From the NCBI RefSeq assembly GCF_012317045.1, contig NZ_CP051154.1, forward strand, positions 3,224,001 through 3,288,000: 64,000 bases of DNA, written 5' to 3'. Shown piece after piece: positions 12,722 to 49,054 of the stretch (within the stretch, counting starts at the first letter, position 1; every line of letters starts with the position of its first letter). The translations under genes and the position numbers were made by a program. The notes under the pieces were generated by a model. That model had not been told where the DNA came from and made no database searches. It worked only from the letters and a program-made list of their open reading frames with translations. The stretch comes from Leifsonia sp. PS1209. Its GTDB lineage: Bacteria > Actinomycetota > Actinomycetes > Actinomycetales > Microbacteriaceae.

Positions 12722-12733
12722 GGATGTGTTCCG

Positions 12734-14035: not shown

Positions 14036-14040
14036 GCCGG

Positions 14041-28818: not shown

Positions 28819-28819
28819 A

Positions 28820-31158: not shown

Positions 31159-32864
31159 TGGGACTCCCTCGTGACCACCGAGCCACTCGACCCGACGAGG
31201 AAGTCGAGGTCGGCGCCGGTGTCTGCTCCTTGGACGTGTTCGATGTACAGCTTCTGCCAGCCGCGGTCTGCCCTCGCGAAACCGTCGACCTCGCGCTGGG
31301 CGGCGGTTCTGCCCGCCAGCTCCGCCTCGTCGACCAGGAGTTCGAGGCGGCGGTTCGGCACGTCGAGCGAGATCAGGTCGCCGTCCTGCACGAGCGAGAG
31401 CGGTCCGCCGGCGGCCGCCTCGGGGGCGACGTGCAGCACGACGGTGCCGTATGCCGTTCCGGACATACGTCCGTCGCTGATCCTGACCATGTCGCGCACG
31501 CCCTGCTTCAGCAGCTTCTGCGGGATGGGCATGTTGCCCACCTCCGGCATGCCGGGGTAGCCCTTCGGCCCGCAGCCGCGGAGGACGAGCACGGAGTCCG
31601 CATCGACGTCGAGGTCCGGGTCGTCGAGGCGCGCGTGGGCGTCCTCGATGGAGTCGAAGACGACGGCCTTCCCGGTGTGCACCAGCAGCTCGGGGGTCGC
31701 GGCGGCCGGCTTGATGATCGCGCCGCGTGGGGCGAGATTGCCGTGCAGGACAGCGATGCCCGCGTCGTCCTGCAGCGGGTCGTCGCGGAGCGTGATCACG
31801 CCGCTGTCCCACACCTGGTTGCCGCCGAGGTAGTCGGTGAGCGGACGCCCGGTGACGGTCTGCGCCGCGGGGTCCAGCAGGTCGGTGAGCTGGTCGAGCA
31901 CGGCGAGGAAGCCTCCGGCGCGGAACAGGTCCTCCATCAGGTATGCGCCCGCCGGCTGCAGGTTGACGAGCAGTGGCACCTGGCCGCCGATCCTGTCGAA
32001 GTCCTCCAGGGTGAGATCGATGCCCAGCCGCCCGGCGATCGCCAGCAGGTGCACGACGGCGTTGGTGGATCCCCCGATCCCGGCGAGCGCGACGATCGCG
32101 TTGTGGAAGGACTCCTTCGTGATGACCTGCGAGATGCGGCGGTCCTCCAGCGCGAGCTCCACCGCGAGCCTGCCGGACGCGTGAGCGGCTTCGAGCAGGC
32201 GGCTGTCCGCGGCCGGAGTGCCCGCGACGCCGGGGATGGTCATGCCGAGCGCCTCGGCCATCAGCCCCATCGTGGATGCGGTGCCCATCGTGTTGCAGTG
32301 CCCCTTGCTGCGGATCATCTTCTTGTCCGTCGCCTCGAACTCCGCCTCGCTGAGGGTGCCGGCCCTGACCTCCTCTGAGAGCTGCCAGACACCGGTGCCG
32401 CACCCCATCCGCTCCCCGCGGAAGTAGCCGTTCAGCATCGGGCCACCCGGCAGCACGACGGCGGGGATGTCCACCGACGCCGCTCCCATCAGCAGAGCGG
32501 GGATCGTCTTGTCGCAGCCGCCGAGCAGCACGGCGGCGTCGATCGGGTTGGCGCGCAGCATCTCCTCGGTGGCCATCGCGGCCAGGTTGCGCCAGAGCAT
32601 CGCCGTCGGCTTGACCAGCGTCTCCCCCAGTGACACCATCGGCACGTTGACCGGGACGCCGCCCGCCTCCCACACTCCCTGCTTGACGTATTCGGCCACC
32701 TCGTTGAGGTGCATGTTGCACGGCGTCAGGTCGCTCGCCGTGTTCGCGATGGCGATCTGCGGCCTCCCGTCGAACGCGTGATCCGGCACGCCTCTGCGCA
32801 TCCACGCCCGGTGGATGTACGGGTCGCGGCCGTCGCCGCCGTACCAGCCCTGTGATCGGACCAT
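31155..32864 (-). CDS. IlvD/Edd-family pentonate dehydratase
   Basis: 569 residues, the sugar-acid branch of the IlvD/Edd family (L-arabonate / D-xylonate dehydratase type). The [2Fe-2S] cysteines are C49 ([12 protein letters not shown]), C117 ([11 protein letters not shown], with the metal-binding Lys beside it) and C190 ([11 protein letters not shown]). The C-terminal ending [20 protein letters not shown] binds the substrate. It removes water from the aldonate to give the 2-keto-3-deoxy acid. GGAG lies 9 bp before the ATG. First gene of the operon; two LacI-B-like operators lie 45-137 bp upstream. Whether arabonate, xylonate or another aldonate is preferred cannot be read from the sequence. 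Confidence 0.9.
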
Positions 32865-34866: not shown

Positions 34867-34883
34867 ATTTCCACGTTGCAACT
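34867..34883. promoter_or_regulatory. LacI-C operator upstream of the MFS-GH2 operon
   Basis: ATTTCCACGTTGCAACT, 19 bp before the MFS start. TTTCCACGTTGCAAC is repeated exactly at 45176-45190 and its 14-bp core TTTCCACGTTGCAA recurs in reverse at 43964-43977. Confidence 0.7.
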
Positions 34884-34901: not shown

Positions 34902-36218
34902 ATGGGTCCACGAACCGAACCCGCAGCCCCCGCAGCAACCCGCGCGACCCGTCCCGTCCTCGGCGGCAGGACCTGGCTGGCGCTCGTCGTCGTCGGCCTG
35001 GTCGGCCAGCTGGCCTGGACCGTCGAGAACATGTACCTCAACGTGTACGTGTACGACACCATCTCGCCCGACCCCAACGTCATCGCCATCCTGGTCGGGT
35101 CGAGCGCGGTCGCCGCGACCGTCGCCACACTGCTCGTCGGAGCCTGGTCCGACCGGATGGGTCGCCGCCGCGCGCTCATCGCCGTCGGCTACGTCGCCTG
35201 GGGCATCTGCACGGCCGCGTTCGGATTCGTCGGAGCCCCGTCCGGTGCTGAAGCTCCCACCGGGGCCGCCCTCATCGGCGCCATCGTCGCGATCGTGCTG
35301 CTCGACTGCGTGATGAGCGCGTTCGGCTCCGGCGCCAACGACGCCGCGTTCAGCGCGTGGGTGACAGACTCCACCGCTCCGGCCAACCGGGGCAGGGTCG
35401 ACGGCGTGCTCGCCGTGCTCCCGCTGATCGCCATGCTGCTGGTGTTCGGGCTGCTCGACGGCCTCACCCGCGCCGGAGACTGGAAGCTGTTCTTCGGCGT
35501 GGTCGGCATCGTCACCATCGCGACGGGCGCGCTGTCGTGGTTCCTCATCCGGGATCGCGGCGTTCCGGCCAGGCGGGAGCACATCCTGAGCGCAGTGGTG
35601 CACGGTCTGCGCCCGAGCACGGTCAGGCGACAGCCGGCCCTCTATCTCACGCTGGCGATCTGGGCCGTCATCGGGACGAGCACTCAGGTGTTCCTGCCCT
35701 TCGTCATCATCTACCTGCAGCGCTACCTCCGCATCGAGTCGTACGCGCTCGCCCTCGGGATCGTCCTGATCCTGGCGTCCGCGCTGAGCATCGTCGCCGG
35801 CCGCGTGATGGACAGGGTGGGCAAGGCCAGATTCCTGCTCCCCGCCGTCGGCGTCTTCGCTGTCGGCCTGATCGCCATGACCTTCGCGCGCGACCTGCCG
35901 CTGGTCATCGCGGCGGCCACGGTGATGATGGCGGGCATGATGGCGTCACTGGCGACGGTCTCCGCGATGACCCGCGACCACACCCCGGCCGACCGTGCGG
36001 GCGCCGTGCAGGGCATCCGGATGATCCTCGCGGTGATGATCCCGATGATCGCCGGTCCGTTCCTCGGCGCCGCTGTCATCTCCGGTGCGGCGAACACGTA
36101 CACCTCGCTCGGCGTCGTGCAGCCGGTGCCCGGTCCGGAGATCTTCGCGACGGCGGCCGTGGTGCTCGTGCTCGTTCCCGTGCTCGTCGCCGTGCGCGCG
36201 AAGTGGGGCCGCTCGTGA
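34902..36218 (+). CDS. MFS transporter (sugar-type, linked to GH2)
   Basis: 438 residues with about 12 membrane helices. The first is WLALVVVGLVGQLAWTVENM, and VGAWSDRMGRRRALIAVGYV carries the loop 2-3 motif D-R-x-G-R-R. The gap between helix 6 and 7 is short. Homologues beginning with an AWTVENMYLNVYVYD segment are commonly found beside glycoside hydrolases in actinobacteria (general knowledge), suggesting glycoside import or sugar export. The ATG at 34902 follows GAGG with good spacing; earlier in-frame starts lie inside the operator and terminator. It overlaps the GH2 gene by 4 bp. Confidence 0.85.
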   Translation: MGPRTEPAAPAATRATRPVLGGRTWLALVVVGLVGQLAWTVENMYLNVYVYDTISPDPNVIAILVGSSAVAATVATLLVGAWSDRMGRRRALIAVGYVAWGICTAAFGFVGAPSGAEAPTGAALIGAIVAIVLLDCVMSAFGSGANDAAFSAWVTDSTAPANRGRVDGVLAVLPLIAMLLVFGLLDGLTRAGDWKLFFGVVGIVTIATGALSWFLIRDRGVPARREHILSAVVHGLRPSTVRRQPALYLTLAIWAVIGTSTQVFLPFVIIYLQRYLRIESYALALGIVLILASALSIVAGRVMDRVGKARFLLPAVGVFAVGLIAMTFARDLPLVIAAATVMMAGMMASLATVSAMTRDHTPADRAGAVQGIRMILAVMIPMIAGPFLGAAVISGAANTYTSLGVVQPVPGPEIFATAAVVLVLVPVLVAVRAKWGRS

Positions 36219-38038
36219 GTCTGAGGACGCCGTGGGCCGACTCCCTCGACCGGGATGCCGTGCTGCAGGAGTACCCGCGCCCGCAGCTCGTGCGCGACAG
36301 CTACCTCAACCTCAACGGCCGGTGGGAGTACGCGATCACCGACAGCGCAGAGCATCCGGTGGACTGGGACGGCGACATCCTCGTGCCGTTCTCCCCGGAG
36401 GCGGAGCTCTCCGGCGTCGGGCGGCAGCTGCTTCCTGGACGGCACCTCTGGTACCGGCGCACGGTGCGCATCCCGAGCGGGTTCGCGGAGGACAGGGTGC
36501 TGCTGCACTTCGGGGCCGTCGACCAGGACTGCGTCGTGTACCTCGACGGCGTTCGGGTGGGCGGGCACTCCGGCGGGTTCCTGCCGTTCTGCATCGACCT
36601 CGGTTCCGCTCTGTCCGACGAGGCCGAGCACGTGCTGACCGTCGACGTGGTCGACGTCAGCGACACGAGCCACCGTTCCCGCGGCAAGCAGGCGCTGCGC
36701 CGCGGGGGCATCTGGTACACCGCGCAGTCCGGGATCTGGCAGACGGTCTGGCTGGAGTCCGTGCCGGCGGTGCACGTGCAGCGGCTCGACATCCGGCCGC
36801 TGCTCGCGGACGCCACGGTCGAGGTGACCGTGATCGGCAGCGCCGCCTCGACGACCACCGAGGCCACGGTCGTCCTGACCGCCGATGGCGCGGTGGTGTC
36901 GAGCGGCAGCGGCAGGCCGGGCGAGCCGATCACCCTCCCCGTCGACGACGTGCGTGCGTGGAGCCCGGAGGATCCGTACCTCTACGACCTCGAGGTGCGA
37001 CTCGGCAGCGACAGCGTCACCAGCTACGTCGGGATGCGCTCCGTCGGCGTCGAGCGCGACGGGAACGGCATGCCCCGACTGCTCCTCAACGGCCGCCCGT
37101 ACTTCCACGCCGGCGTCCTCGACCAGGGCTACTGGCCGGACGGCCTGCTCACCGCACCCTCCGACGACGCGCTCATCCACGACATCCAGAGCATGAAGGA
37201 GCTCGGCTTCACGATGCTGCGCAAGCACATCAAGGTCGAGTCGCTGCGCTGGTACCACCACTGCGACAGGCTCGGGATGCTCGTGTGGCAGGACATGGTG
37301 AACGGCGGCCGCCGGTACAACCCGGCGGTCATCACCGCACCGGTTCTGCTGCCCGTGCGCATCGACGACCGGCGGCATCGCGTCTTCGGCAGGCAGGATG
37401 CCGCGGGGCGCGAGGAGTTCCAGCGCGAGCTCGCCGAGACCGTCACGCTGCTGAAGAGCGTGCCGAGCGTGGTGGCCTGGGTGCCGTTCAACGAGGGCTG
37501 GGGGCAGTTCGACGCCCTCGACGCCGTGGAGCGCATCCGGTCGCTCGACCAGGACAGGGTCATCGACCACGCGAGCGGCTGGCACGACCAGGGCGGCGGC
37601 GACCTGCGCAGCCTGCACGTCTACTTCCGCCGCATCCGGCCGTCCAGGAGCTGGGGCCGCGACGGGCGCGCCGTCGTCGTGTCCGAGTACGGCGGGTACA
37701 GCCTCCGCCTCGCGGGGCACGCGTTCAGCGACCGCGAGTTCGGCTATCGCAGACTCCCGTCCGTCTCCGCGTTCACGGATGCGTTCGCCGCACTGCACAG
37801 GAACGAGGTGCTTCCCGCCATCGCGGAGGGGCTGTCCGGGATCGTGTACACGCAGCTCGCCGATGTCGAGGACGAGCTGAACGGCCTCCTCACCGCCGAC
37901 CGGACCGTGCTGAAGGCCGACGCGGACACCGTCCGCACGATCATCCGGGAGCTGGCCGCGCGGTTCGCGCTCGTCGCCCCACCGAATCCGCCGGCACACG
38001 AAGGAGTCCATGATGGGTCGCAGAATCGTCGAGCGTGA
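36215..38038 (+). CDS. GH2-family glycoside hydrolase (cytoplasmic)
   Basis: 607 residues. Domain order is that of GH2: a sugar-binding sandwich (residues about 20-190, YLNLNGRWEYAI, GGHSGGFLPFCIDLG), an immunoglobulin-like domain (190-285) and a TIM barrel (285-600). Acid/base E427 sits in AWVPFNEGWGQF and nucleophile E491 in VVVSEYGGYS. No signal peptide, so it hydrolyses an imported beta-galactoside, glucuronide, mannoside or alpha-arabinoside type bond. The GTG start overlaps the MFS stop (GTGA). Its last 26 bases overlap the DUF2804 gene in another frame, so three genes are coupled. Confidence 0.9.
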   Translation: MSLRTPWADSLDRDAVLQEYPRPQLVRDSYLNLNGRWEYAITDSAEHPVDWDGDILVPFSPEAELSGVGRQLLPGRHLWYRRTVRIPSGFAEDRVLLHFGAVDQDCVVYLDGVRVGGHSGGFLPFCIDLGSALSDEAEHVLTVDVVDVSDTSHRSRGKQALRRGGIWYTAQSGIWQTVWLESVPAVHVQRLDIRPLLADATVEVTVIGSAASTTTEATVVLTADGAVVSSGSGRPGEPITLPVDDVRAWSPEDPYLYDLEVRLGSDSVTSYVGMRSVGVERDGNGMPRLLLNGRPYFHAGVLDQGYWPDGLLTAPSDDALIHDIQSMKELGFTMLRKHIKVESLRWYHHCDRLGMLVWQDMVNGGRRYNPAVITAPVLLPVRIDDRRHRVFGRQDAAGREEFQRELAETVTLLKSVPSVVAWVPFNEGWGQFDALDAVERIRSLDQDRVIDHASGWHDQGGGDLRSLHVYFRRIRPSRSWGRDGRAVVVSEYGGYSLRLAGHAFSDREFGYRRLPSVSAFTDAFAALHRNEVLPAIAEGLSGIVYTQLADVEDELNGLLTADRTVLKADADTVRTIIRELAARFALVAPPNPPAHEGVHDGSQNRRA

Positions 38039-39023
38039 GCTGACGGAGCCCGTGTCGCTCTGCCTCGCGGATGGGCGGCTCGACCGCCGCTCGGTCGGCT
38101 GGTCGCGCACACCGCTGCACGACACGTCCGGCATCGACGGCCGCACCGTCTGGGGCCGCAACAAGCGCTGGGAGTACTGGGCCGTCACGACGCCGACGCA
38201 CATCGTGTCTCTCACCGTCTCGTCGCTCGACTACGCGGCGGTGCACGGGATCATGGTCCACGACATCCGGTCGGGCGCGACCGTCGAACGCGGAGCCGTC
38301 TCCCCCCTCGCCGGGAGCGCGACCCTCCCTCCCCGGCTGGGCGCGTCGTCGGCCAGGGCGCGCACCCGCTCGCTCTCCATCGACATCGACGAGCTGCCGG
38401 GCGGCACGCGCCTGCGGGGAACAGCACCCGGCGTCGCCTTCGACATCACCGCCGAGCGTCCGGACGGACACGAGGTGCTCGCCGTCGTCGTCCCCTGGTC
38501 GCACAAGCGCTTCCAGTACACGGTCAAAGACGTCGCGCGCCCCGCCACCGGCTGGCTGGACATCGACGGCACGCGCGTGGAGCTGCCGTCCGGCGAGAGC
38601 TGGGCCGTGCTCGACCACGGCAGAGGGCGCTGGCCGTACCGGATGCGGTGGAACTGGGGCGCGGCATCCGGTGTGGTCGACGGGAGGACGATCGGCCTGC
38701 AGCTCGGCGGGAGGTGGACGGACGGGACGGGCTCCACGGAGAACGGCGTGCTCGTCGACGGCGTGCTGCACAAGATCAGCGAAGAGCTCGACTGGGCATA
38801 CGACGAACGGGACTGGCTGGCGCCGTGGCGCATCCACGGCAGCAGCGTCGACGTGACCTTCGTGCCGTTCTGGGACCACACCAGCTCGACGGAATTGGGC
38901 GTCTTCGGCAGCCGCGGCCACCAGTGCTTCGGCCACTACTCCGGGTGGGCCGACACCGCGGAGGGGCGCATCCGGATCGACGGGCTGCTCGGCTGGGCGG
39001 AAGACGTGCGCAACCGCTGGTGA
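38013..39023 (+). CDS. DUF2804 protein, paralogue 1
   Basis: 336 residues. DUF2804 features are WGRNKRWEYWAVTTPTHIVS, VVPWSHKRFQYTVKD, VLDHGRGRWPYRMRWNWGAA, LGGRWTDGTGSTENGVLVDG and CFGHYSGWADT. The fold is believed to be a lipocalin-like double domain related to AttH/carotenoid-hydratase proteins, but no enzymatic role is established to my knowledge. The ATG at 38013 is spaced 6 bp from GGAG (38003-38006); an ATG at 38010 is too close. It is the third gene of the MFS-GH2 operon and converges with a small gene. The second copy is at 39521 on the other strand. Confidence 0.85.
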   Translation: MGRRIVERELTEPVSLCLADGRLDRRSVGWSRTPLHDTSGIDGRTVWGRNKRWEYWAVTTPTHIVSLTVSSLDYAAVHGIMVHDIRSGATVERGAVSPLAGSATLPPRLGASSARARTRSLSIDIDELPGGTRLRGTAPGVAFDITAERPDGHEVLAVVVPWSHKRFQYTVKDVARPATGWLDIDGTRVELPSGESWAVLDHGRGRWPYRMRWNWGAASGVVDGRTIGLQLGGRWTDGTGSTENGVLVDGVLHKISEELDWAYDERDWLAPWRIHGSSVDVTFVPFWDHTSSTELGVFGSRGHQCFGHYSGWADTAEGRIRIDGLLGWAEDVRNRW

Positions 39024-39026
39024 CGC

Positions 39027-39353
39027 TCAGCCGATGAGCGCGTGCGCCCTGGCCGGGAACGACGTCGGAGACTCGGCGAGCAGCGTGAAGACGCCGAGCT
39101 CGCCGATCACGCTGTGCAGCACCCAGGTCCTGCTGTGCAGGCCGCCGGACGACGCGTAGTCGACCACGATCATGTCCGGATGCGGGGCGTCGCCCTCCAG
39201 GCGCAGGATGCGGGCGGTGCCGGAACCGGCCGGCCCGCTCAGCCAGGCCGAGCATCCGCCCTGGTCGTCGCCGGAGCGGGGAGAGGCGATGGCGAGCGCT
39301 GCGTCGCTGACGCGGAGCACGGCGGGAGTCTGGCGCGTGGTCTTCACTGACAT
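39027..39353 (-). CDS. Hypothetical protein, 108 residues
   Basis: I do not recognise the family. A strand-rich, soluble protein: AVLRVSDAALAIASP, CSAWLSGPAGSGTARILRL, MIVVDYASSGGLHSRTWVLH, LGVFTLLAESPTS. The pattern suggests a small beta-sandwich or barrel. The ATG at 39353 is preceded by GGAGACCGCACC. It is the last gene of the minus-strand importer/DUF2804 run but is separated from DUF2804 by 167 bp with two hairpins, so it may be transcribed at a lower level. Its 3' end is 3 bp from the end of the convergent DUF2804 paralogue 1. Confidence 0.6.
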   Translation of the reverse strand: MSVKTTRQTPAVLRVSDAALAIASPRSGDDQGGCSAWLSGPAGSGTARILRLEGDAPHPDMIVVDYASSGGLHSRTWVLHSVIGELGVFTLLAESPTSFPARAHALIG

Positions 39354-39407
39354 GGTGCGGTCTCCGATCGGTGCGGGTGGTGGTGCTGTGAAGGTGGTGC
39401 TGTGGTG

Positions 39408-39441
39408 AGCGGGGCGCCGCATATCGGTACAGCGCCCCGCT
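39408..39441 (-). terminator. Hairpin downstream of DUF2804 paralogue 2
   Basis: AGCGGGGCGC (39408-39417) pairs perfectly with GCGCCCCGCT (39432-39441) around a 14-nt loop. There is no T-run on the minus strand. A smaller hairpin, CGGGCC-CGGA-GGCCCG, lies at 39494-39509, just after the DUF2804 stop. Together they could end or attenuate the operon before the small gene at 39353. Confidence 0.55.
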
Positions 39442-39520
39442 CGGCTCCGGCTGCGGTAGTGGACCTACGCAGTGGCGTCCGGAGCGGTCTGTACGGGCCC
39501 GGAGGCCCGGGTGAGGTGCG

Positions 39521-40555
39521 TCACCAGCGGCGTTCGACCTCCTCGACGTGGCCGAAGACATCCGCGAACTGGACGACCTCGCCGGTCTCGAGCGTGATCC
39601 GCCCGGAGTAGTGGCCGAAACAGCTGTCCGCCCTGCTCATCACGATCCAGCGGTCGAACACGTGCCGGGAGTGGTGCTCCGGGGTGAAGGTGACCTCCAC
39701 GCCGGGACCGGTGAGGGTCCAGGGCCGCAGCCACGCCGTCGGGTCGTAGCGCCAGTCGAGGTGCGAGCTGATCTTGTGCAGGCGGCCGTCGACGCGGATC
39801 CAGTTCTCGGTCGACGGCGTTCCGTCCGTCCACTTGCCGCCGAACTGCAGGCCGAGCTCCCGCCCGTCCGCGCTCAGGCCGTTGCCTGCTCCCCAGTTCC
39901 AGAAGGTGAAGTACGGCCAGCGGCCACGACCGCGGTCGTGCACGGCGTACGACTCGTCCGGCTCGATGTGGTGGGTGACGCCGTCCACGACGATCACGCC
40001 CTGCGCGCGCAGGCAGTTGTCCTTCTTCGTGTACTGGAAGACGCGGTCGCTCCACGGGACGACGACGCCCATCGACTCGTGATCCGGTTCGCCGATGATG
40101 CGCAGGTCGACCGAGATGCGCGCAGACTCGGCGTGCAGCACGGTGTTCACCCCGCGCGGCGTCATCCTGACCAGCACGTCGTTGCGGCTTGCCTCCATCG
40201 GCTCGCGGTTGGTCTCGTCGCGCATCCCGCCTGCTCCGGGGAACCAGGTGTTCCCGCCCTGCCGGATCTCGGTGTACGTGGCGCGATCGAGGTGGGTGAC
40301 GGAGACGTTCGCGCGGTAGTCGTGGTGCGAGATGTTCATCGTGACGATCGACGTCGGCGTGACGATGGCCCAGTACTCGAAGCGCTTGTTGCGCCCCCAG
40401 CCCGGCAACCCCGTCCTGTGCAGCGCCCTGCGCGTCCAGCCGACCGCCGCCGGGTTCAGCTTGCCCGATGGGAGGCACAGCTCCGTCGTCTCGGTGATCT
40501 CGCGCTCGATGACGCTCTCGCCACCGGGCTCCACCTGTTTGAGAGGTAGCCTCAC
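39521..40555 (-). CDS. DUF2804 protein, paralogue 2
   Basis: 344 residues, clearly homologous along its length to the protein at 38013: REITETTELCLPSGKLN, GRNKRFEYWAIVTPTSIVT, VVPWSDRVFQYTKKDNC, DRGRGRWPYFTFWNWGAG, LQFGGKWTDGTPSTENWIRV and CFGHYSGRITLE. The invariant Trp/Arg/Asp residues are kept in both, while the middle third differs, so they have diverged and probably handle different substrates. It follows the MalG-type permease by 36 bp on the importer operon. Two DUF2804 genes in facing operons of one regulon suggest a role in the sugar pathway rather than in lipid metabolism, which is inference. Confidence 0.85.
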   Translation of the reverse strand: MRLPLKQVEPGGESVIEREITETTELCLPSGKLNPAAVGWTRRALHRTGLPGWGRNKRFEYWAIVTPTSIVTMNISHHDYRANVSVTHLDRATYTEIRQGGNTWFPGAGGMRDETNREPMEASRNDVLVRMTPRGVNTVLHAESARISVDLRIIGEPDHESMGVVVPWSDRVFQYTKKDNCLRAQGVIVVDGVTHHIEPDESYAVHDRGRGRWPYFTFWNWGAGNGLSADGRELGLQFGGKWTDGTPSTENWIRVDGRLHKISSHLDWRYDPTAWLRPWTLTGPGVEVTFTPEHHSRHVFDRWIVMSRADSCFGHYSGRITLETGEVVQFADVFGHVEEVERRW

Positions 40556-40591
40556 TCGTTCCGGCCTTTCTGTCTGTCGTCGTTCATGGGA

Positions 40592-41488
40592 TCAGCCCTT
40601 CGTGGCGCCGTCGGCGAGGCCGCGGATCAGCCACTTCTGGACGAGGAGGGCGAGGATCACGACGGGCACGACCGTGAGCATGCCTGCTGCGGACAGCGCT
40701 CCCCAGTTGGCGCCGTGCTCGGTGTCGCCCGCCATCCCGGCGATGGCGACGGGGAGCGTCGTGGCCTTGCGATTGGTCAGCACCAGGGCGAAGAGGAGCT
40801 CCTCCCAGGCCAGGATGATGCTGAAGATGAAGGTGGAGATGAGTCCGGGTGCGGAGATCGGCACGATGATCCGGAAGAAGGCGCCCATCCGGGAGCAGCC
40901 GTCGATCATGGCCGACTCCTCCAGCTCCTTCGGCAGCGCGAGGAAGAACCCGCGCATCAGCCACATCACGTACGGGATGACGAACGAGCAGTACGCGAGG
41001 ATGAGCGTGATGTGCGTGTCCGTGATCCCGAGCGTGCGGGCCACGAGGAACATCGGCACGGCCAGGGCGATCGGCGGAACACCGCGGGAGGCGAGGATCA
41101 GCACGCCGATCGTGGCTGCGCCCTTGATCTTCAGGCGGGACAGCGCGTAGCCGGCCATCGCTCCGGCGACCAGCGACAGGATGCCCGCACCGCCCGCCAC
41201 GATGATCGTGTTGATCATCTTCGGGCCGAGGCCGCCCTGCACGAACGCCTGCACGTACTGGTTGAGCGTCGGATCGAAGAAGATCGTCGGCGGGGTGGTG
41301 AAGATGTCCCTCTGCTGCTTGAACGAGGTGAGGAGCATCCAAAGCAGCGGCAGCAGGAAGAGCGCGCAGATGATGACGCCCGACCAGATGCGGGCCCGCT
41401 CGCTGCGGCGTCGCCGGACGATGGCGGAGGTCTTGGGCTGCTTCGTCTGCTCCCTGAGACTCTCCCTGTCCCTGGTGATCGTGGTCAC
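40592..41488 (-). CDS. CUT1 sugar ABC importer, permease (MalG type)
   Basis: 298 residues. A basic N-terminus (IVRRRRSERARIW) leads to helix 1 (SGVIICALFLLPLLWMLLTS). The EAA loop is AMIDGCSRMGAFFRIIVPIS. GTG at 41488 is the start: it overlaps the upstream permease stop by 4 bp and no ATG lies near the expected N-terminus. Third gene of the region C importer operon (binding protein, two permeases, DUF2804). No ATPase gene is present. Confidence 0.9.
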   Translation of the reverse strand: MTTITRDRESLREQTKQPKTSAIVRRRRSERARIWSGVIICALFLLPLLWMLLTSFKQQRDIFTTPPTIFFDPTLNQYVQAFVQGGLGPKMINTIIVAGGAGILSLVAGAMAGYALSRLKIKGAATIGVLILASRGVPPIALAVPMFLVARTLGITDTHITLILAYCSFVIPYVMWLMRGFFLALPKELEESAMIDGCSRMGAFFRIIVPISAPGLISTFIFSIILAWEELLFALVLTNRKATTLPVAIAGMAGDTEHGANWGALSAAGMLTVVPVVILALLVQKWLIRGLADGATKG

Positions 41489-42408
41489 AGTCTGTCCTCC
41501 AGTTTCTTGCTGCCCAGCAGGAACACGAACGTGAGGATCATCGTGATGACGAGCACGATCACCGCCATCGCCGACGACTCGCTGAACTTGAGCAATCGGA
41601 ACGCCTGTTGATAGATGAAGAGGTTGACGACGTTCGTCGCCTCCCCCGGGCCGCCGTTCGTGGTCGCGAGGATGATGTCGAACATCTTCACCGCACCCAG
41701 CCAGCGCACCACGAAGGTCGCGGCGATGATCGGGCCCAGCATGGGGAGGCTGACCGATTTGAGCGTCTGCCACCAGTTGGCCCCGTCCACCTTGGCCGCC
41801 TCGAACACGTCCTTCGGCAGCGCGAGCAGCGCGGCGGCGGCGATCAGGGCGACGAACGGCACGGAGCGCCAGGTGTCGATGAGAACCACGCTGATCATCG
41901 ACATGGTCGCGTTGCCGAACCAGTCGATCGGCGGGATCCCGAACAGGCCGAGGAACCAGCCGACCACACCCCAGAGCGGGTCGAGGATCATCTTCCAGAT
42001 CCCGCCGGAGACGACGGGGGCCACGACCATCGGGATGAGGAAGAGGGCGCGGACGATGCCACGCCCTCTCCACTCGGCGTTCATCAGATAGGCGATCCCG
42101 AAACCGAGCACGATCTGCAGCGGAAGAGCGAGCACCAGGTAGATGCCGGTGACGACCAGGGAGTTCTGGAACGTCTCGTTCTGCAGTGCGGCCGTGTAGT
42201 TCTCGAGACCGACCCATTCGGTCGGTGAGAACGTTGCGAGGTCGAACTTCGAGAAGCTGATCTGCAGCGTGTAGAGCAATGGATATGCGAGGACAGCGGC
42301 GAGGAGCACCGTTGCCGGCAGCATGAACGTCCATCTGCTGAAGATGTCCCGCATCCGCGAGACGCGACGAGCGCGGTCCACACGCTGTCTCGTGAGTTCG
42401 ACCGTCAT
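41485..42408 (-). CDS. CUT1 sugar ABC importer, permease (MalF type)
   Basis: 307 residues. Helix 1 is WTFMLPATVLLAAVLAYPLL and the EAA loop reads AKVDGANWWQTLKSVSLPML. TNGGPGEATNVVN before the last helices is the MalF/UgpA-type motif. It starts 4 bp after the binding-protein stop, with no hairpin between them, unlike the region A and D importers. Partner of the permease at 40592. Confidence 0.9.
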   Translation of the reverse strand: MTVELTRQRVDRARRVSRMRDIFSRWTFMLPATVLLAAVLAYPLLYTLQISFSKFDLATFSPTEWVGLENYTAALQNETFQNSLVVTGIYLVLALPLQIVLGFGIAYLMNAEWRGRGIVRALFLIPMVVAPVVSGGIWKMILDPLWGVVGWFLGLFGIPPIDWFGNATMSMISVVLIDTWRSVPFVALIAAAALLALPKDVFEAAKVDGANWWQTLKSVSLPMLGPIIAATFVVRWLGAVKMFDIILATTNGGPGEATNVVNLFIYQQAFRLLKFSESSAMAVIVLVITMILTFVFLLGSKKLEDRL

Positions 42409-42412
42409 GTTC

Positions 42413-43780
42413 CTACTTCTTCAGGAGTTTGTTGATCTGATCCGTGGCCTTCTTCAGCGCGTCCTCCGACGACGCCTGGCCTTGGACGGCTGCACTCGTC
42501 TGGTCGGCGAGGACCTCCTGGATCGCGTTCGACTCCGGGCTGCGGGGCCGCCACATCTGGCCCTTCTCCGCCACGTCGTACGCGCTCTGGATGGTCGTGA
42601 AGACCGGGGAGAGCCACGCCTGCTCGGGAGTGGTCGCGAGCGTCGACTTGCGGGCGGGGAACGACCCGAGGGTGTTGGTCGTCCAGACCTCGCCCTTCTT
42701 CGACGTCATCCACTGCAGGAACGTCCAGGCCGCCTCCGGGTGCGTGGAGTTCTTGAAGACCGAACCGCTCCAGATGCCGCGGTGCGTGCTCGGCCCGTCC
42801 GAACCGGCCGGCATCGTCTGGATGCCCACCTGGTCCGGCGTCAGCTTCGTGACGGCCGGGTCGACGGCGGCGCTCTTGTACGCGCTGCCCCAGGTGAAGA
42901 TGGAGGCGACCTTGCCCTGGCGGAACGCATCCAGAGGCTCGGTGTAGTTGTAGTTCGTCGCTCCGGGAGGCGCGTACTTGAGCAGGTCGACCTGCGTTTG
43001 CAGCGCGGCAGCGCCTTCCTTAGTGTCGAACGTCGGCTTCATGTTCTTGTCGAACAGAGCGCCTCCGTTGGAGTTGAGGACGGCCTGCCAGACCGGCGGG
43101 GAGAGCACTCCGCGCATCCAGGTGAGCCCGACGGCCCACGAGTCGACCTTGCCGTCTCCGTCGGTGTCCTGCACCAGTGACGGAGCCTCCTTCAGGTACT
43201 GGTCCCAGGTGAGCTCGGGGGTGGGCTCTGCGAGACCGGCCTTCGCGTACAGCGCCTTGTTGTAGAACATCAGCAGCATGTTGGAGCGCAGCGGGACGCC
43301 GTACTGCTTGCCGTCCCACTCACTGGATGCGAGGGGCGCCGCGTTGAAGTCGGCCCAGTCGTACGCCTTGTCCGTCCACTGCTTCGCGTCGTTCTTGAGG
43401 TCGAGCAGCACCCCGGCGTTCGCCAGCTGCGGCGTCCACGGGTCGTCGAGCGTGATGAGGTCGTACTGGGGCTCGGGATCCGTGCCGTTGAGCAGGCCCT
43501 TCGCGAGCAGTTCGGTGTACGGCACGGCGTCGATGGTGACGTCGATGTACGGGAACTCTTTGTTGAACTCGGGGACCAGCTGGTCCTGCCACTGCTGTGC
43601 GAACGCGTCGTTCGACATCATCGTGATCTTGACGTGCTTCTTGGCCGTTCCGATGCCTCCGCCGTCCGCGGCGGGCGCTTCGCTGGTCCCGGTGCACGCG
43701 GTGAGTGCGATCAGGCTGAGTGCCGCAGCTCCTGCGACTGCCAGCAGCCGTTTCGGCCGCCGTTGGGTGCCTGCTGTCAT
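42413..43780 (-). CDS. CUT1 sugar ABC importer, substrate-binding lipoprotein
   Basis: 455 residues. The signal peptide (RRPKRLLAVAGAAALSLIAL, then TAC lipobox) anchors it as a lipoprotein. The fold is a family 1 binding protein: KITMMSNDAFAQQWQDQLVP, VTIDAVPYTELLAKGLL, YDLITLDDPWTPQLANAGV, MLLMFYNKALYAKAGL, ASIFTWGSAYK. Aromatic-rich segments suggest an oligosaccharide or glycoside ligand. The ATG at 43780 has GGAG 9 bp upstream; the ATG at 43789 is too close to it. Its promoter region (43963-43993) is overlapped by two LacI-C operators and lies back-to-back with lacI-C. Confidence 0.93.
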   Translation of the reverse strand: MTAGTQRRPKRLLAVAGAAALSLIALTACTGTSEAPAADGGGIGTAKKHVKITMMSNDAFAQQWQDQLVPEFNKEFPYIDVTIDAVPYTELLAKGLLNGTDPEPQYDLITLDDPWTPQLANAGVLLDLKNDAKQWTDKAYDWADFNAAPLASSEWDGKQYGVPLRSNMLLMFYNKALYAKAGLAEPTPELTWDQYLKEAPSLVQDTDGDGKVDSWAVGLTWMRGVLSPPVWQAVLNSNGGALFDKNMKPTFDTKEGAAALQTQVDLLKYAPPGATNYNYTEPLDAFRQGKVASIFTWGSAYKSAAVDPAVTKLTPDQVGIQTMPAGSDGPSTHRGIWSGSVFKNSTHPEAAWTFLQWMTSKKGEVWTTNTLGSFPARKSTLATTPEQAWLSPVFTTIQSAYDVAEKGQMWRPRSPESNAIQEVLADQTSAAVQGQASSEDALKKATDQINKLLKK

Positions 43781-43962
43781 ACAGATCATCTCCTCGTCGT
43801 TGAATGGATGTTCGTGGTCGGTGGCCGCTGGGCGCTTCGAGGAGGGGGTGCCTCGATGTGGTGTGCGAAACGGTGCTCCGGCCGGAATGTGAATGCCGGA
43901 GAGCTGGCGCCGGGGGTGTGGCGAGCTGCTCTGCAGAGACACTCAAGCAGACATTCCAAAAT

Positions 43963-44003
43963 ATTGCAACGTGGAAACATGCAAATGTGTCAACGTTGCA
44001 ACA
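43963..44003 (-). promoter_or_regulatory. Importer promoter overlapped by two LacI-C operators
   Basis: On the minus strand TTGACA (43988-43993) and TGCAAT (43963-43968) are separated by 19 bp and read toward the binding-protein gene. The operator TTTCCACGTTGCAA (43964-43977, minus) covers the -10. A second, TTGCAACGTTGACA-like site (43989-44003) covers the -35 and also lies just upstream of lacI-C. Confidence 0.7.
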
Positions 44004-44026
44004 ATCTGCTCCCCTACGATGTGACC

Positions 44027-45160
44027 GTGACCAGTATGGACGAGCAGACACCGGGCCGACGATCGGGAGCACCCACGATCAAAGACGTGGCCGCGCTCGC
44101 CGGCGTCTCGTACCGCACGGTCTCGAACGTCGTCAACGGGCACAAGTACATCAGCGAGGCGACCCGCACGAAGGTCGAAGCGGCGATCGCCGAGATCGGC
44201 TACCGCCCGCAGCTGGCGGCCAGGCAACTGCGCAGCGGACGGAGCAACCTGCTCACCCTGTCCGTGCCGTTCGTCTCCCACCCGTACTTCGCCCAGCTCG
44301 CCCACGCCGTCGTCACCGAGGCGGAACGGTTCGGCTACGACGTGGTGATCGACGAGACCAGGGGCCTGCTCGAGCGGGAGCTGCGCGTGGCGGCCGGATT
44401 CCGCACGATCCTCACCGACGGGATCCTGTTCAGCCCGCTCTCGATCGACCTCGAACGCTTCGAGGCGGAGCGCGGCTCGACCCCGCTGGTCCTCCTCGGC
44501 GAGCGCTTCCGCAGCGAGAGGATCGACAGCGTCGTCGTCGACAACGTCCGCTCCAGCTACGACGCGACGATGTGCCTCATCGAAAGCGGCAGGCGCGCCC
44601 TCGGCTTCCTCGGAAACGTGAAAGTCGGAACGATCGGCGCGGCCCCGGCCGACCTCCGCATCCGGGGCTTCCAGAAAGCCCTCGACGAAGCGGGACTCAC
44701 CGCAGACCCGGCACACATCGTCACCGTGTCGCGCTGGGACCAGTCGAGCCCGGACGGCGACTACTCGCGCGAGGAAGGCTACGAGCGCACGAAGGAGTTG
44801 ATCGAGCGGCTGGGTGCTGGTGGCGCGGGTGGCGCGGGTGGCGCGGGTGGCGCATCCAACCCCCTCGGCGGCCTGGACGGGCTGGTGTGCGCCAACGACC
44901 TTCTCGCCATCGGCGCGTTGCGGGCGTTCCGCGAGGCGGGCATCTCCGTGCCGGGCGACATCGCGGTGGTCGGCTGGGACAACACCGCGGAGGCCGCGTT
45001 CTCCGCCCCGTCGCTGACCACCATCTCCCCCGACCTGCACGAGATCGCCCGGCTGGCGATCGTCGCCATGTTGCGGCGCCTCGACGAGCCGGAGGCCGAG
45101 CCGCGCACCGACCACGCGCCGTACAGCCTCGTGCGCAGGGAGTCCACCGCGGTCGGCTGA
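44027..45160 (+). CDS. LacI-family regulator (LacI-C) of the region C regulon
   Basis: About 377 residues. Helix-turn-helix TIKDVAALAGVSYRTVSNVV, a canonical hinge RPQLAARQLRSGRSNLLTL, then the ligand domain ending GDIAVVGWDNTAEAAFSAP. No ribosome site is visible; a TACGAT -10-like box at 44015-44020 would start RNA at or near the GTG at 44027, so a leaderless message is likely (the ATG at 44036 is the alternative). A Gly/Ala repeat interrupts the ligand domain near residue 265-280. Exact or near copies of TTTCCACGTTGCAAC stand before this gene, the importer, the MFS operon and the CoA-transferase operon, so it probably controls all four. Confidence 0.9.
   Translation: MTSMDEQTPGRRSGAPTIKDVAALAGVSYRTVSNVVNGHKYISEATRTKVEAAIAEIGYRPQLAARQLRSGRSNLLTLSVPFVSHPYFAQLAHAVVTEAERFGYDVVIDETRGLLERELRVAAGFRTILTDGILFSPLSIDLERFEAERGSTPLVLLGERFRSERIDSVVVDNVRSSYDATMCLIESGRRALGFLGNVKVGTIGAAPADLRIRGFQKALDEAGLTADPAHIVTVSRWDQSSPDGDYSREEGYERTKELIERLGAGGAGGAGGAGGASNPLGGLDGLVCANDLLAIGALRAFREAGISVPGDIAVVGWDNTAEAAFSAPSLTTISPDLHEIARLAIVAMLRRLDEPEAEPRTDHAPYSLVRRESTAVG
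44821..44853. repeat. 9-bp tandem repeat inside lacI-C
   Basis: TGGCGCGGG is repeated three times plus a partial fourth copy, encoding a GAGGAGGAGGAGGA-type stretch in the ligand domain. Units of 9 bp keep the frame, so copy-number change would only lengthen or shorten a flexible loop. Confidence 0.85.
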
Positions 45161-45175
45161 GCGGCTCCACAAATA

Positions 45176-45190
45176 TTTCCACGTTGCAAC
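45176..45190. promoter_or_regulatory. LacI-C operator upstream of the CoA-transferase operon
   Basis: TTTCCACGTTGCAAC, identical to the site at 34868-34882, located 17 bp before the CoA-transferase start and 15 bp after the lacI-C stop. Confidence 0.7.
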
Positions 45191-45207
45191 AAGACAAGGA
45201 TGTCTGA

Positions 45208-46464
45208 TTGGATGCACGCATGACGCACCACGAGCCGCCGATGCCACTCGCCGGGGTGCCACTCCCCGGGGCACCGCTCGCGGGCATCCGGGTCGCCGAC
45301 TTCACGCGCATCCTGGCCGGCCCGTACGCGACCATGATGCTGGCCGACTTCGGCGCGGACGTCGTCAAGATCGAGAGCCCGCTCGGCGACGACACCCGCC
45401 GCTGGGTTCCGCCCACCGACGAGCACGGCGACTCCACGTACTTCTCCGGCGTGAACCGCTCCAAGCGCTCCGTCGTCTGCGACCTGCGCACCCCGCAGGG
45501 ACTCGCCACCGCCCGCCGCCTCGCGCACACCGCCGATGTGGTGATCGAGAACTTCCTCCCGCGGACGATGGAGCGGTTCGGCCTCGGCGACGCCGCCGTC
45601 CGCGCGGCTAACCCCGGGGTCGTCTACTGCTCGATCACCGGGTTCGGACCGGGAAGCGACCTCCCCGGCTACGACCTGCTCGTGCAGGCGGTCGGCGGTC
45701 TGATGAGCGTGACCGGCGCGGCAGACGGACCTCCGACCAAAGCGGGCGTGGCCCTCGTCGACGTGCTCACCGGGCTCAACGCCTTCTCGGGCATCCTGCT
45801 CGCCCTCCGCGCCCGCGAGACGACCGGACTGGGCGACCATCTCGACGTCGACCTCCTCAGCACCCTGCTCGCCGCCCTCACCAACCAGGCGTCGAGCGCG
45901 CTCGCCACCGGCATCGACCCAGGGCGTCTCGGCAACGCGCACCCGAGCATCGCCCCGTACGAGCTGTTCGCCTGCCAGGACCGCGAGCTCGTCATCGCGG
46001 TCGGCAACGACCGCCAGTTCGCCGCCCTCGCCGACGAGCTGGGCCGCCCCGACCTCGCCGCCAACGAGCGTTTCCGCAGCAACGCGCAGCGCGTCGGCCA
46101 CCGGGATGCTCTCCGCCGCGAACTCGAGTCCGTCCTCCGCACCGCTCCGGCCGCGCACTGGAAACAGCGCCTCGACGCCAGGGACGTACCCGCCGGGCTG
46201 GTCAACACGATCACCGAGGCCGTGGCGCTCGCGGAGAGCCTCGGCGCGCATCCGGTGCAGGAGCTGGTCGACGACCGGGGCGAGGTCGCCGGCCGCCAGC
46301 CGGCCAACCCCATCCACCTGGCCGGTTCGCCTCCTCGGCCCGGCCGCACCGCGCCCGGCCTCGGCCAGCACGCCGACGCCGACTGGCTCCCCGCCGCCGC
46401 CCCGACCCTCCGCCACTCCACACCCGACGACGACCCCGGCACCCACCGACAGGAACCCCGATGA
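45208..46464 (+). CDS. Family III (CaiB/BaiF/Frc-type) CoA-transferase
   Basis: 418 residues. Family hallmarks: LAGIRVADFTRILAGPYATM, FGADVVKIESPLGDDTR, KRSVVCDLRTPQG, DVVIENFLPRTMERFGLG, VVYCSITGFGPG and the catalytic Asp D156 in GYDLLVQAVGGLMSVTG. These enzymes move CoA between carboxylic acids, often dicarboxylates (succinyl-CoA to glutarate, oxalate, mesaconate). The TTG at 45208 has AAGGA 7 bp upstream; an ATG at 45220 is the alternative. It overlaps the acyl-CoA dehydrogenase gene by 4 bp and is preceded by a LacI-C operator, so it is placed in a sugar-type regulon. Confidence 0.9.
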   Translation: MDARMTHHEPPMPLAGVPLPGAPLAGIRVADFTRILAGPYATMMLADFGADVVKIESPLGDDTRRWVPPTDEHGDSTYFSGVNRSKRSVVCDLRTPQGLATARRLAHTADVVIENFLPRTMERFGLGDAAVRAANPGVVYCSITGFGPGSDLPGYDLLVQAVGGLMSVTGAADGPPTKAGVALVDVLTGLNAFSGILLALRARETTGLGDHLDVDLLSTLLAALTNQASSALATGIDPGRLGNAHPSIAPYELFACQDRELVIAVGNDRQFAALADELGRPDLAANERFRSNAQRVGHRDALRRELESVLRTAPAAHWKQRLDARDVPAGLVNTITEAVALAESLGAHPVQELVDDRGEVAGRQPANPIHLAGSPPRPGRTAPGLGQHADADWLPAAAPTLRHSTPDDDPGTHRQEPR

Positions 46465-47615
46465 CAGCACTCTCCGACACCTTCGACCTCGCACCGCTGC
46501 TCACCGCCGAGGAGCTGGGCTGGCAGGAGCGGGCGCGCACGTTCGCCCGCGAGCGCCTGCTCCCGGTGGTCGACGAGGACTTCGAGAACCGGCACTTCCG
46601 CCGCGAACTCATCGCCGAGTTCGGCGCCGCCGGGTTCCTCGGCATGCACCTCCCCGACGATGGCTGCGCCGGGGCCGGAGCCGTCAGCTACGGCCTGGTC
46701 TGCCACGAGCTGGAGGCCGTCGACAGCGGGTGGCGCACGTTCGTGTCCGTGCAGGGTTCGCTCGCCATGACCGCCATCTCGCGGTTCGGCGCGTCCGATC
46801 AGAAGGCCCTCCTCCCCGCGATGGCCCGCGGCGAGCTGATCGGCTGCTTCGCGCTGACCGAGCCGCAGGGCGGAAGCGACCCCGCCGCGATGACCACCAC
46901 AGCCACGAGGGACGGCGACGACTGGCTGATCAGCGGGCGCAAACGCTGGATCGGCCTGGCGGGCGTCGCGGACGTCGCCGTGGTGTGGGCGCGCACCGAC
47001 GACGGCATCCGGGGCTTCGTCGTCGACACCGCCTCCCCCGGCTTCACCGCCACGATCATCGACGACAAGCTCTCCATGCGCACCTCCGTGCAGTACGAGA
47101 TCGACCTCGACGCGTGCCGTGTCCCCGCCTCGGCGCAGCTGCCGGATGCGGTCGGACTGTCCGCACCGTTCACGTGCCTCAACGAGGCGCGGTTCGGGAT
47201 CGTCTGGGGCGCGATGGGCGCCGCCCGCAGCTGCATCGAGGTCGCTGTCGAGCGAGCGACGTCTCGCGAGGTGTTCGGCTCACCGATCGGCTCGAAACAG
47301 CTCATCCAGCAGCGCCTCGCCGACATGCTGGTCGAGTACGAGAAGGGCATGCTGCTCGCCCTGCACCTGGGTCGCCTGGAGGAGCGGGGAGCCATCACAC
47401 CCGTGCAGATCAGCGTCGGCAAACTGAACAACGTGCGCGAGGCGCTGACCATCGCGCACAGCGCCCGGACGATCCTCGGCGGTGACGGTGTCACGAGCGC
47501 GTTCCCGGTGATGCGGCACATGGCCAACCTGGAGTCGGTGAGGACCTACGAGGGCACGGACGACATCCACACGCTCGTCATCGGCCGCTCGCTCACCGGC
47601 CTCTCGGCGTTCTGA
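46461..47615 (+). CDS. Acyl-CoA dehydrogenase, glutaryl-CoA-dehydrogenase-like
   Basis: 384 residues. FAD/substrate motifs: LIGCFALTEPQGGSDPAAM, WLISGRKRWIGLAG, and the catalytic base E364 in TYEGTDDIHTLVIGRSLTG, which closely follows the glutaryl-CoA dehydrogenase end (YEGTHDIHALILGRAITG type). The segment VDSGWRTFVSVQ keeps the Arg (R92) that in glutaryl-CoA dehydrogenase binds the free carboxylate of the substrate, with Thr instead of the next Ser. This points to a dicarboxylyl-CoA substrate such as glutaryl-CoA; whether it also decarboxylates is not visible. Co-translated with the CoA-transferase before it and the aldehyde dehydrogenase after it (TGATG). Confidence 0.88.
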   Translation: MTALSDTFDLAPLLTAEELGWQERARTFARERLLPVVDEDFENRHFRRELIAEFGAAGFLGMHLPDDGCAGAGAVSYGLVCHELEAVDSGWRTFVSVQGSLAMTAISRFGASDQKALLPAMARGELIGCFALTEPQGGSDPAAMTTTATRDGDDWLISGRKRWIGLAGVADVAVVWARTDDGIRGFVVDTASPGFTATIIDDKLSMRTSVQYEIDLDACRVPASAQLPDAVGLSAPFTCLNEARFGIVWGAMGAARSCIEVAVERATSREVFGSPIGSKQLIQQRLADMLVEYEKGMLLALHLGRLEERGAITPVQISVGKLNNVREALTIAHSARTILGGDGVTSAFPVMRHMANLESVRTYEGTDDIHTLVIGRSLTGLSAF

Positions 47616-49054
47616 TGGCAGGACCGGCCCCCGTGGAGGCAGCGGTCACCGCCGCGGCCTCGTCCGGCTTCACCGCCACCACCCGCTCGGAGCGCGCCGC
47701 CGCCCTCGTCGCATTGGCCGCGGCGCTGGAGCGAGCGAGCGCCGAACTCGTCGCCATCGCCGCGGCCGAGACGCACCTGACGCCCGGCCGCCTCTCCGGC
47801 GAGGTCACGCGCACGGCGAACCAGCTGCGCTTCTTCGCCGAGGTGATCGAGGAGGGCGGCTATCTCGAAGCGGCGGTCGACCGCGCCGACCCGTCCACAG
47901 TTCCTCCGCGCCCCGACCTGCGGCGCATGCTGCGCCCGCTCGGCGTCGTGGCCGTGTTCACCGCCTCCAACTTCCCGTTCGCGTTCTCGGTGCTCGGCAA
48001 CGACACCGCGTCCGCCATCGCGGCGGGGTGTCCCGTGGTGGTCAAGGCGCATCCAGGGCATCCGCTGCTCTCCCGCCGCACCGCGGAGCTGGCAAGGGAG
48101 GCGCTGGCCGCCGCGGGCATCCACCCCGATGCCATCACCCTCGTGGAGGGCATGGAGGCCGGAGTCGAACTCGTCCGTCACCCGCTCGTCACCGCGGTGG
48201 CGTTCACGGGTTCCGAGCGCGGGGGCAGAGCCCTCTTCGAGGTGGCGGCGTCGCGTCAGCAGCCCATCCCGTTCTACGGCGAACTGGGCAGCATCAACCC
48301 GGTCGTCATCACCGCCGCCGCGGCGAGCGCCGACGCCGCCTCCCTCGCCGCCGGGCTGGTGGAGGTGGTGACCAGGGACGCCGGGCAGTTCTGCACCAAG
48401 CCTGGCCTGGTGTTCGTCCCGGCCGGGCACGGCTTCGCCGCAGCGGTGGCGAGCGAACTCGCGTCGGCTCCCGCGCATCCACTGCTCACCGACGGCATGA
48501 CGAGCGCGTTCGAGCAGCGGGTGTCCGCGCTCTCCCGGCGCGACGACCTCGCGGTCTCGCGCGGCCCAGGAGACGCGGACGCGCGCCCCGCCGTGGTGAC
48601 GGCGGACATCGCGGCGTTCCTCGCCGACCCGGATGCGCTGCTCGCCGAGTGCTTCGGCCCCCTGACCGTCGTGGTCGAGTACACCGCCGGCGACGACCTG
48701 CTCCCCGCGCTCGGCCACCTGCCCGCCTCGCTGACGGCGACCATCCGCTCGGCGCCGGACGAGGACGTGACCTGGCTCGCCGCGATCCTGTCGCCCCGGT
48801 GCGGAAGGCTGGTCTTCGACGGCTGGCCAACCGGTGTCGCGACGGGATGGGCCCAGCACCACGGCGGAGCGTGGCCGGCCACGACGGGCTCGCTGCACAG
48901 CTCGGTCGGCGCCAGTTCGCTCCGCCGCTTCCTCACCCCGGTCGCCTACCAGAACGCCCCGGAGAGCGTGCTGCCGGCCGAACTCCACGACGCGAACCCA
49001 CTGCACCTCCCGCGCCGGGAGAACGGGAGGCTGGTGCCCGCCGCCCGCGGGTAG
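47615..49054 (+). CDS. KGSADH-type aldehyde dehydrogenase (paralogue 2)
   Basis: 479 residues, same group as the enzyme at 28820: [19 protein letters not shown]144 in VVVKAHPGHP, E223 in [13 protein letters not shown] and catalytic C260 in GQFCTKPG. The family oxidises C5 semialdehydes that carry a distal carboxylate (2-oxoglutarate semialdehyde, also glutarate semialdehyde in some members). Its start overlaps the acyl-CoA dehydrogenase stop (TGATG). With a CoA-transferase and glutaryl-CoA-dehydrogenase-like enzyme, a scheme semialdehyde to dicarboxylate to dicarboxylyl-CoA to enoyl-CoA is plausible but unproven. Confidence 0.88.
   Translation: MAGPAPVEAAVTAAASSGFTATTRSERAAALVALAAALERASAELVAIAAAETHLTPGRLSGEVTRTANQLRFFAEVIEEGGYLEAAVDRADPSTVPPRPDLRRMLRPLGVVAVFTASNFPFAFSVLGNDTASAIAAGCPVVVKAHPGHPLLSRRTAELAREALAAAGIHPDAITLVEGMEAGVELVRHPLVTAVAFTGSERGGRALFEVAASRQQPIPFYGELGSINPVVITAAAASADAASLAAGLVEVVTRDAGQFCTKPGLVFVPAGHGFAAAVASELASAPAHPLLTDGMTSAFEQRVSALSRRDDLAVSRGPGDADARPAVVTADIAAFLADPDALLAECFGPLTVVVEYTAGDDLLPALGHLPASLTATIRSAPDEDVTWLAAILSPRCGRLVFDGWPTGVATGWAQHHGGAWPATTGSLHSSVGASSLRRFLTPVAYQNAPESVLPAELHDANPLHLPRRENGRLVPAARG

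Follow-up and report, generated by a model that had tools for sequence, protein, structure and literature searches.

What brings acyl-CoA enzymes into a gene cluster built around a sugar-type LacI regulator, and do the genes form one pathway or two? The question is raised by positions 34902 to 49054 of the window, a 64,000-nucleotide stretch of Leifsonia sp. PS1209 (contig NZ_CP051154.1) that is part of a single-contig genome of 4.09 Mb (G000). A first-pass annotation of this DNA had proposed one linear pathway leading from an imported glycoside to a dicarboxylyl-CoA. Our results support well a reading from the gene sequences in which two modules are joined: a furanoside-type sugar regulon (MFS, GH2, two DUF2804 proteins, CUT1 importer, LacI) and a CoA cassette, consisting of a CoA-transferase (CoAT), an acyl-CoA dehydrogenase (ACAD) and an aldehyde dehydrogenase (ALDH). 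We consider it likely that the cassette moved under the sugar repressor in two Leifsonia strains, rather than that the locus preserves an ancestral linear pathway. The observations that carry this reading are the modules themselves, copies of one motif before both, their separation in relatives, and a cassette-free state of the site where the cassette is usually found. Among the genomes examined, the joined state was seen in just two, the second being that of Leifsonia sp. Root227 (G310, locus L112).

Gene content of the locus

All genes listed in the first-pass annotation are present within 34902 to 49054, as Pfam matches and gene calls confirm; gene starts are those of our own gene caller, and start codons may be off. 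The genes form four units, MFS-GH2-DUF2804-A (plus strand), SBP-permF-permG-DUF2804-B (minus strand), lacI (plus strand) and CoAT-ACAD-ALDH (plus strand), together with one small gene.

34902 to 36218, plus strand: MFS carrier (PF07690, 137 bits); relatives of 61 to 89% adjoin GH2 in other loci
36215 to 38038, plus strand: GH2 glycosidase, probably a group III (GH2_18/19-like) furanosidase; NE at 426-427, SEY with E at 491
38010 to 39023, plus strand: DUF2804-A (336 bits); predicted AttH/CrtC-type double-lipocalin fold
39027 to 39353, minus strand: small protein, no Pfam match; relatives of 43 to 81% in L101/L112, L103 and L104/L114
39521 to 40555, minus strand: DUF2804-B (PF10974, 287 bits); 41% identity to DUF2804-A
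40592 to 41488, minus strand: CUT1 permease of MalG type (permG), read from its translation; relatives of 81 to 92% adjoin permF and SBP
41485 to 42408, minus strand: CUT1 permease of MalF type (permF; PF00528, 60 bits)
42413 to 43780, minus strand: sugar-binding protein (SBP), SBP_bac_1 (PF01547, 157 bits)
44036 to 45160, plus strand: LacI-family regulator (PF00356, 69 bits; PF13377, 111 bits)
45220 to 46464, plus strand: family III CoAT (PF02515, 395 bits); Asp181, counted from 45220
46461 to 47615, plus strand: ACAD, glutaryl-CoA dehydrogenase-like; E85, R92, T93, Y363, E364
47615 to 49054, plus strand: ALDH (PF00171, 138 bits); C260, E223, N119

No ATP-binding subunit of the CUT1 importer was called within the cluster; CUT1 importers commonly have none in their own cluster. 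The small protein has relatives in G310, G303 and G306, the three other genomes with both DUF2804 copies in the cluster.

A putative LacI operator before both modules

Copies of an operator-like motif were found before the sugar units and before the CoA cassette, as would be expected of a single LacI regulon.

34868 to 34881, plus strand: putative LacI operator TTTCCACGTTGCAA before MFS-GH2-DUF2804-A; exact, same place in Root227
43964 to 43977, minus strand: putative LacI operator before the SBP operon, between SBP and lacI; exact
43988 to 44001, plus strand: second, imperfect copy before lacI; 2 mismatches
45176 to 45189, plus strand: putative LacI operator before the CoA cassette; exact, present in Root227

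The exact 14-mer occurs 3 times in the window versus never in 100 window shuffles. With up to 1 mismatch allowed, the whole 4.09-Mb genome contains 3 copies, all exact (reversed control pattern, 0), and Root227 likewise contains 3 genome-wide, all exact and in the same three places. The 24-base spacing of the imperfect copy (2 to 3 mismatches) is kept in L112, L113, L114, L103 and L091, and in Agromyces a related palindrome, TTTCAACGTTGAAA, stands before MFS in 7 of 7 loci. We infer from this arrangement that this LacI would bind at the motif copies and repress from them, and the LacI control of CoA genes proposed in the first-pass annotation gains support from the exact copy before CoAT in both genomes.

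This last copy could also be taken to mean that the cassette is merely a neighbor that LacI does not control, the motif acting on lacI from downstream or being a leftover. It starts 16 bases past the lacI stop codon and so could serve as a roadblock or looping site, and when the lacI-CoAT spacers of the two genomes are aligned, the well-aligning block covers the motif and extends towards the CoAT start codon, so that it is not a pure operator footprint. On the other hand, the motif is exact in both genomes despite cassette proteins that are just 80 to 90% identical between them. At cassette-free loci of LacI orthologs, moreover, the stretch directly following lacI holds no match even with 3 mismatches allowed; the one exception is L089, whose matches there stand in front of its SBP gene. 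We regard a mere neighborhood as highly improbable.

Separation of the two modules in relatives

The first-pass annotation had named relatives with CoA genes and sugar genes apart as grounds for rejecting its model, and the relatives examined show them apart from both sides. Among 28 Leifsonia genomes, with a threshold of at least 70% for ACAD and for GH2, an ACAD ortholog is present in 24 and a GH2 ortholog in 4, all of which also harbor ACAD. The two genes lie about 10 kb apart only in G000 and G310; in G303 and G306 each module has a site of its own. From the ACAD side, 40 loci were inspected (L112 included), and a CoA-transferase lies within 3 kb at 34 of them, that is, at the merged L112 and 33 others, the six without one being L206, L207 and L209 to L212. 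Sugar-module genes (at least 40% identity, flanks of roughly 10 kb) occur at 0 of these 33 non-merged loci. From the sugar side, 80 of 95 LacI loci were taken. Eleven of them have a LacI of at least 63% identity, and the cassette is missing from 10 of the 11; among the 80, ACAD is near LacI only in L112, and CoAT-like matches without ACAD occur at L159 and L179. No cassette lies near LacI in G303, G240 and G244 (LacI 55 to 81%). These data do not bear out a single linear route by which a glycoside would become a dicarboxylyl-CoA, and the separation suggests rewiring rather than one ancient pathway.

The cassette has a usual setting of its own. A GntR relative (at least 50%) is encoded within 5 kb at 27 of the 33 non-merged CoAT-ACAD loci, and an ALDH (at least 50%) lies beside ACAD in 26. 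The usual order in Leifsonia is PP2C-FHA-Cache protein-GntR, then CoAT-ACAD-ALDH, then permease-PatD-Lrp-GabT-PuuB, some loci being without some of the genes. The labels GntR, Cache and permease are Pfam matches, and PP2C, FHA, Lrp and PuuB are our own sequence reading, which no family search confirms; the PuuB-like gene matched aminophosphonate oxidoreductase and pipecolate oxidase models, both below cut-off. PatD (NF010000, 679 versus 615 bits) and the cassette-linked aminotransferase (NF005102, 806 versus 574 bits) score above their cut-offs, and the aminotransferase recurs as a landmark at 16 of the 18 Leifsonia cassette loci inspected, which come from 17 of the 22 other ACAD-bearing Leifsonia genomes. 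At L061, the sole locus of another genus that was scanned, an amino-acid permease, a class III aminotransferase and an MMSDH (650 versus 448.5 bits) lie near the cassette, along with an SSADH-like gene below cut-off. Such a setting points to the breakdown of polyamines or omega-amino acids, a C5 branch of which would run through glutarate, and it needs no glycoside.

Two further observations concern cassettes outside the window. A Cache/PDC-type-domain protein is encoded beside the cassette GntR in L061 (5113 to 5826), with relatives at other GntR-linked loci, and the two proteins may form a two-protein carboxylate sensor. Leifsonia G311 carries on contig C17 (L105/L220) a second CoAT-ACAD-ALDH copy, its ACAD 70% to that of the window, in a cluster with a BPD_transp_2-type ABC transporter, PNP_UDP_1, PfkB, isochorismatase-like, SIS and another ALDH gene; the cassette may have been recruited a second time here.

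History of the merged site

The usual site is still recognizable in G000 (L192) and G310 (L193), where the outer genes are kept and GntR, the Cache partner, CoAT, ACAD and ALDH are absent; a search of both whole genomes gave no match to the Cache partner. In the protein trees, the merged ACAD pair falls inside a Leifsonia plus g29 group (99/94), the CoAT pair adjoins a group of this kind (97/93), and the ALDH pair is sister to the Leifsonia copies (98/96). Relocation within the Leifsonia lineage is the simplest reading of these sites and trees, and the proposed direction of evolution is as follows: in an ancestor of the two strains the cassette would have moved from its GntR site to a place 3' of lacI, acquiring a LacI operator there. 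An inducing sugar would now switch on dicarboxylate catabolism, and the benefit may perhaps lie in the joint availability of both nutrients. The locus thereby offers a testable case of regulon rewiring, with one regulator, three genome-wide operator copies, the before-state in relatives and a cassette-free usual site.

Several observations weigh against this reading. The usual site is also cassette-free in G125 and G302, both without any ACAD ortholog, and 4 of the 28 Leifsonia genomes (G301, G302, G125, G320) have none; cassette loss is common, so that an empty usual site alone is no proof of a move. In the concatenated tree, the merged pair is sister to the Leifsonia copies with support of 91/95, under the tool's starred level, and its stem is long (0.61), as are the stems in all three protein trees; this support and stem would allow transfer from an unsampled relative. 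The merged ACAD has diverged (mean of 75% to Leifsonia versus 90% within Leifsonia), which could mean a new substrate and hence real metabolic integration. The usual setting is itself not uniform, since no GntR relative is in reach at 6 of the 33 loci (L072, L105, L108, L201, L205, L208) and no ALDH of at least 50% lies beside ACAD at 7. Finally, two cassette enzymes fall short of curated NCBIfam models: ACAD scores 165 bits against the glutaryl-CoA dehydrogenase model NF045552 (cut-off, 470) and is therefore described as GcdH-like rather than filed as GcdH, and CoAT scores 334 bits against the succinate-glutarate CoA-transferase model NF052585 (cut-off, 750), its best NCBIfam match among those listed, and is therefore not filed as a GcoT/SUGCT member.

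The long stems in the three trees raise the possibility that the cassette reached the merged site horizontally, from an actinobacterium outside the sample, with an independent loss of the Leifsonia GntR copy, and the four genomes without an ACAD ortholog demonstrate that loss does happen. Yet all three proteins group with or beside Leifsonia/g29 cassettes, and a wider order-level search of 396 genomes gave no closer cassette relative, the best reaching 75%. We judge such a transfer to be rather unlikely.

The divergence of ACAD would also fit an integrated pathway confined to the two strains. In such a pathway the imported glycoside would have a part that yields a dicarboxylate, such as an acyl group of HMG or glutaryl type or an aglycone that DUF2804 opens, and this part is just what the captured cassette would break down. 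The operator motif common to both modules, of which neither genome has any more copies within 1 mismatch, is in keeping with this, as are the loss of GntR from the usual site and of the Cache partner from both genomes. It is opposed by the 10 LacI loci that manage without the cassette, by the cassettes of relatives that stand without sugar genes, by the absence of an esterase among the cluster genes scanned, and by the 27 changed ACAD positions, which include none of the named glutaryl-CoA dehydrogenase residues. On balance, such integration seems improbable to us. A specific form of it, equally doubtful, would make the captured cassette a dedicated furanoside branch: a plant furanoside would carry a dicarboxylate-yielding group, a DUF2804 hydratase or lyase would open it, and the diverged CoAT and ACAD would burn the acid. 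If this were true, the cassette would be a portable end-module recruited by different catabolic regulons, as the second copy in G311 hints.

Enzymes of the CoA cassette

The cassette relocated in our favored reading appears to be of glutarate type, with enzyme substrates proposed from residues and nearest structures. Glutaryl-CoA dehydrogenases have a carboxylate-binding Arg, a catalytic Glu and a neighboring Glu/Tyr. In the ACAD, E85, R92 (no gap that far), Y363 and E364 align with identical residues of human glutaryl-CoA dehydrogenase 1siq, so that the carboxylate-binding R92 reported in the first-pass annotation is present in company with other residues of this type, and of its 10 best solved relatives, 9 carry the name glutaryl-CoA dehydrogenase (in one case as "putative"). 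Family III CoA-transferases use an aspartate nucleophile, and Asp181 of CoAT aligns with the Asp of its best solved relatives, formyl-CoA transferase 10uh and CaiB/BaiF protein 4ed9; the third best is succinate-hydroxymethylglutarate CoA-transferase 9br7, a likeness that would also suit an integrated pathway. The closest solved relatives of ALDH, 1eyy (341 bits) and 3v4c (319 bits), are deposited simply as aldehyde dehydrogenases, not as KGSADH. Among the 25 of 39 NCBIfam matches listed for the three enzymes, none reaches its cut-off, and for ALDH no model comes near it; the KGSADH models NF042993 and NF052305 give 75.5 of 770 and 83 of 750 bits. KGSADHs occur in other ALDH clades too, and "KGSADH-type," the label given in the first-pass annotation, may or may not suit this enzyme. 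In the proposed sequence of reactions, ALDH would make a C5-type dicarboxylate, the family III CoA-transferase would activate it, and ACAD would dehydrogenate and probably decarboxylate the product.

The sugar module

In the other module, the CUT1 and MFS systems would import a furanoside, GH2 would cleave it, and AttH-fold DUF2804 proteins would act on the sugar or the aglycone. The solved relatives of GH2 are 7sf2 (443 bits), beta-D-galactofuranosidase 9j6n (414) and 7xyr (238), and the next chain scores 80. A 2025 paper on GH2 subfamilies places 9J6M in GH2_18 and 7XYR in GH2_19, within a group having furanose activities (PMC12243196), and the GH2 of the window is probably a group III (GH2_18/GH2_19-like) furanosidase.

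We know of no activity for DUF2804. The structure model of DUF2804-A predicts the AttH/kievitone-hydratase/Diels-Alderase double-lipocalin fold, a double beta-barrel, and because kievitone hydratase and 25-phosphosteroid lyase share this fold, the model also leans toward an integrated pathway. A family that just one paper of the literature searched mentions thus gains a predicted fold and, with it, a class of chemistry to test. In Agromyces fucosus (L135, 7113 to 9965), GH2 and DUF2804 form a single open frame of 950 residues; part of the DUF2804 family is linked to GH2 furanosidase-like enzymes via operons and this one fused reading frame.

Elsewhere in the window, positions 11186 to 14044 encode an ArfA-type arabinofuranosidase above its NCBIfam cut-off and a GH1-like protein, followed up to 19034 by importer- and LacI-like genes recognized by sequence reading alone. 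At 27955 to 32864, SMP-30 lactonase, ALDH, FAH-family and IlvD/Edd dehydratase genes resemble an oxidative pentose/pentonate (Weimberg-type) operon adjoining the cluster; the genes preceding it are importer-like on the same footing. The arabinofuranosidase and the pentonate-like operon make the wider window fit furanosides. A GH3 exo-beta-1,3/1,6-glucosidase above its NCBIfam cut-off lies at 51255 to 53525, with genes behind it that we read as transporter-like. In Promicromonospora, Isoptericola and others (L122 to L134 and L161), a LacI of 41 to 46% lies near a GH2 of 35 to 39% at 13 of 14 loci, all without DUF2804 or CoA-cassette matches.

Comparison with known systems

Among solved chains, the group III furanosidases, with which the window GH2 shares the catalytic NE and E, are far nearer to it than other GH2 enzymes, and its top match, 7sf2, has no placement in the parts of the subfamily paper drawn on here (PMC12243196). 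DUF2804 resembles AttH/CrtC-type double lipocalins (NE1406 2ich, kievitone hydratase 7a0q, CghA, Fsa2, Phm7 and 25-phosphosteroid lyase) at just 8 to 12% identity, the likeness being one of predicted fold. In Agromyces and Microbacterium sp. STN6, an MFS-GH2-DUF2804-LacI locus also represents the sugar module, with a LacI of 63 to 76% and a related palindrome before MFS; the flanks examined contain neither orthologous CUT1 genes nor the CoA cassette.

For the cassette, the known counterpart is the gcdH-gcoT pair of Pseudomonas putida. In the account of the gcdR-gcdH-gcoT module used here (PMC6667623), glutaryl-CoA dehydrogenase and glutarate CoA-transferase are co-transcribed and the regulator is a glutarate-responsive LysR, whereas the Leifsonia pair adds ALDH, its regulator is of LacI type, and its glutarate role is proposed from sequence. 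The GntR-linked CoAT-ACAD(-ALDH) cassette that other genomes in the family carry has CoAT and ACAD adjacent, as in the window, and it is the likely source of the cassette now found next to lacI.

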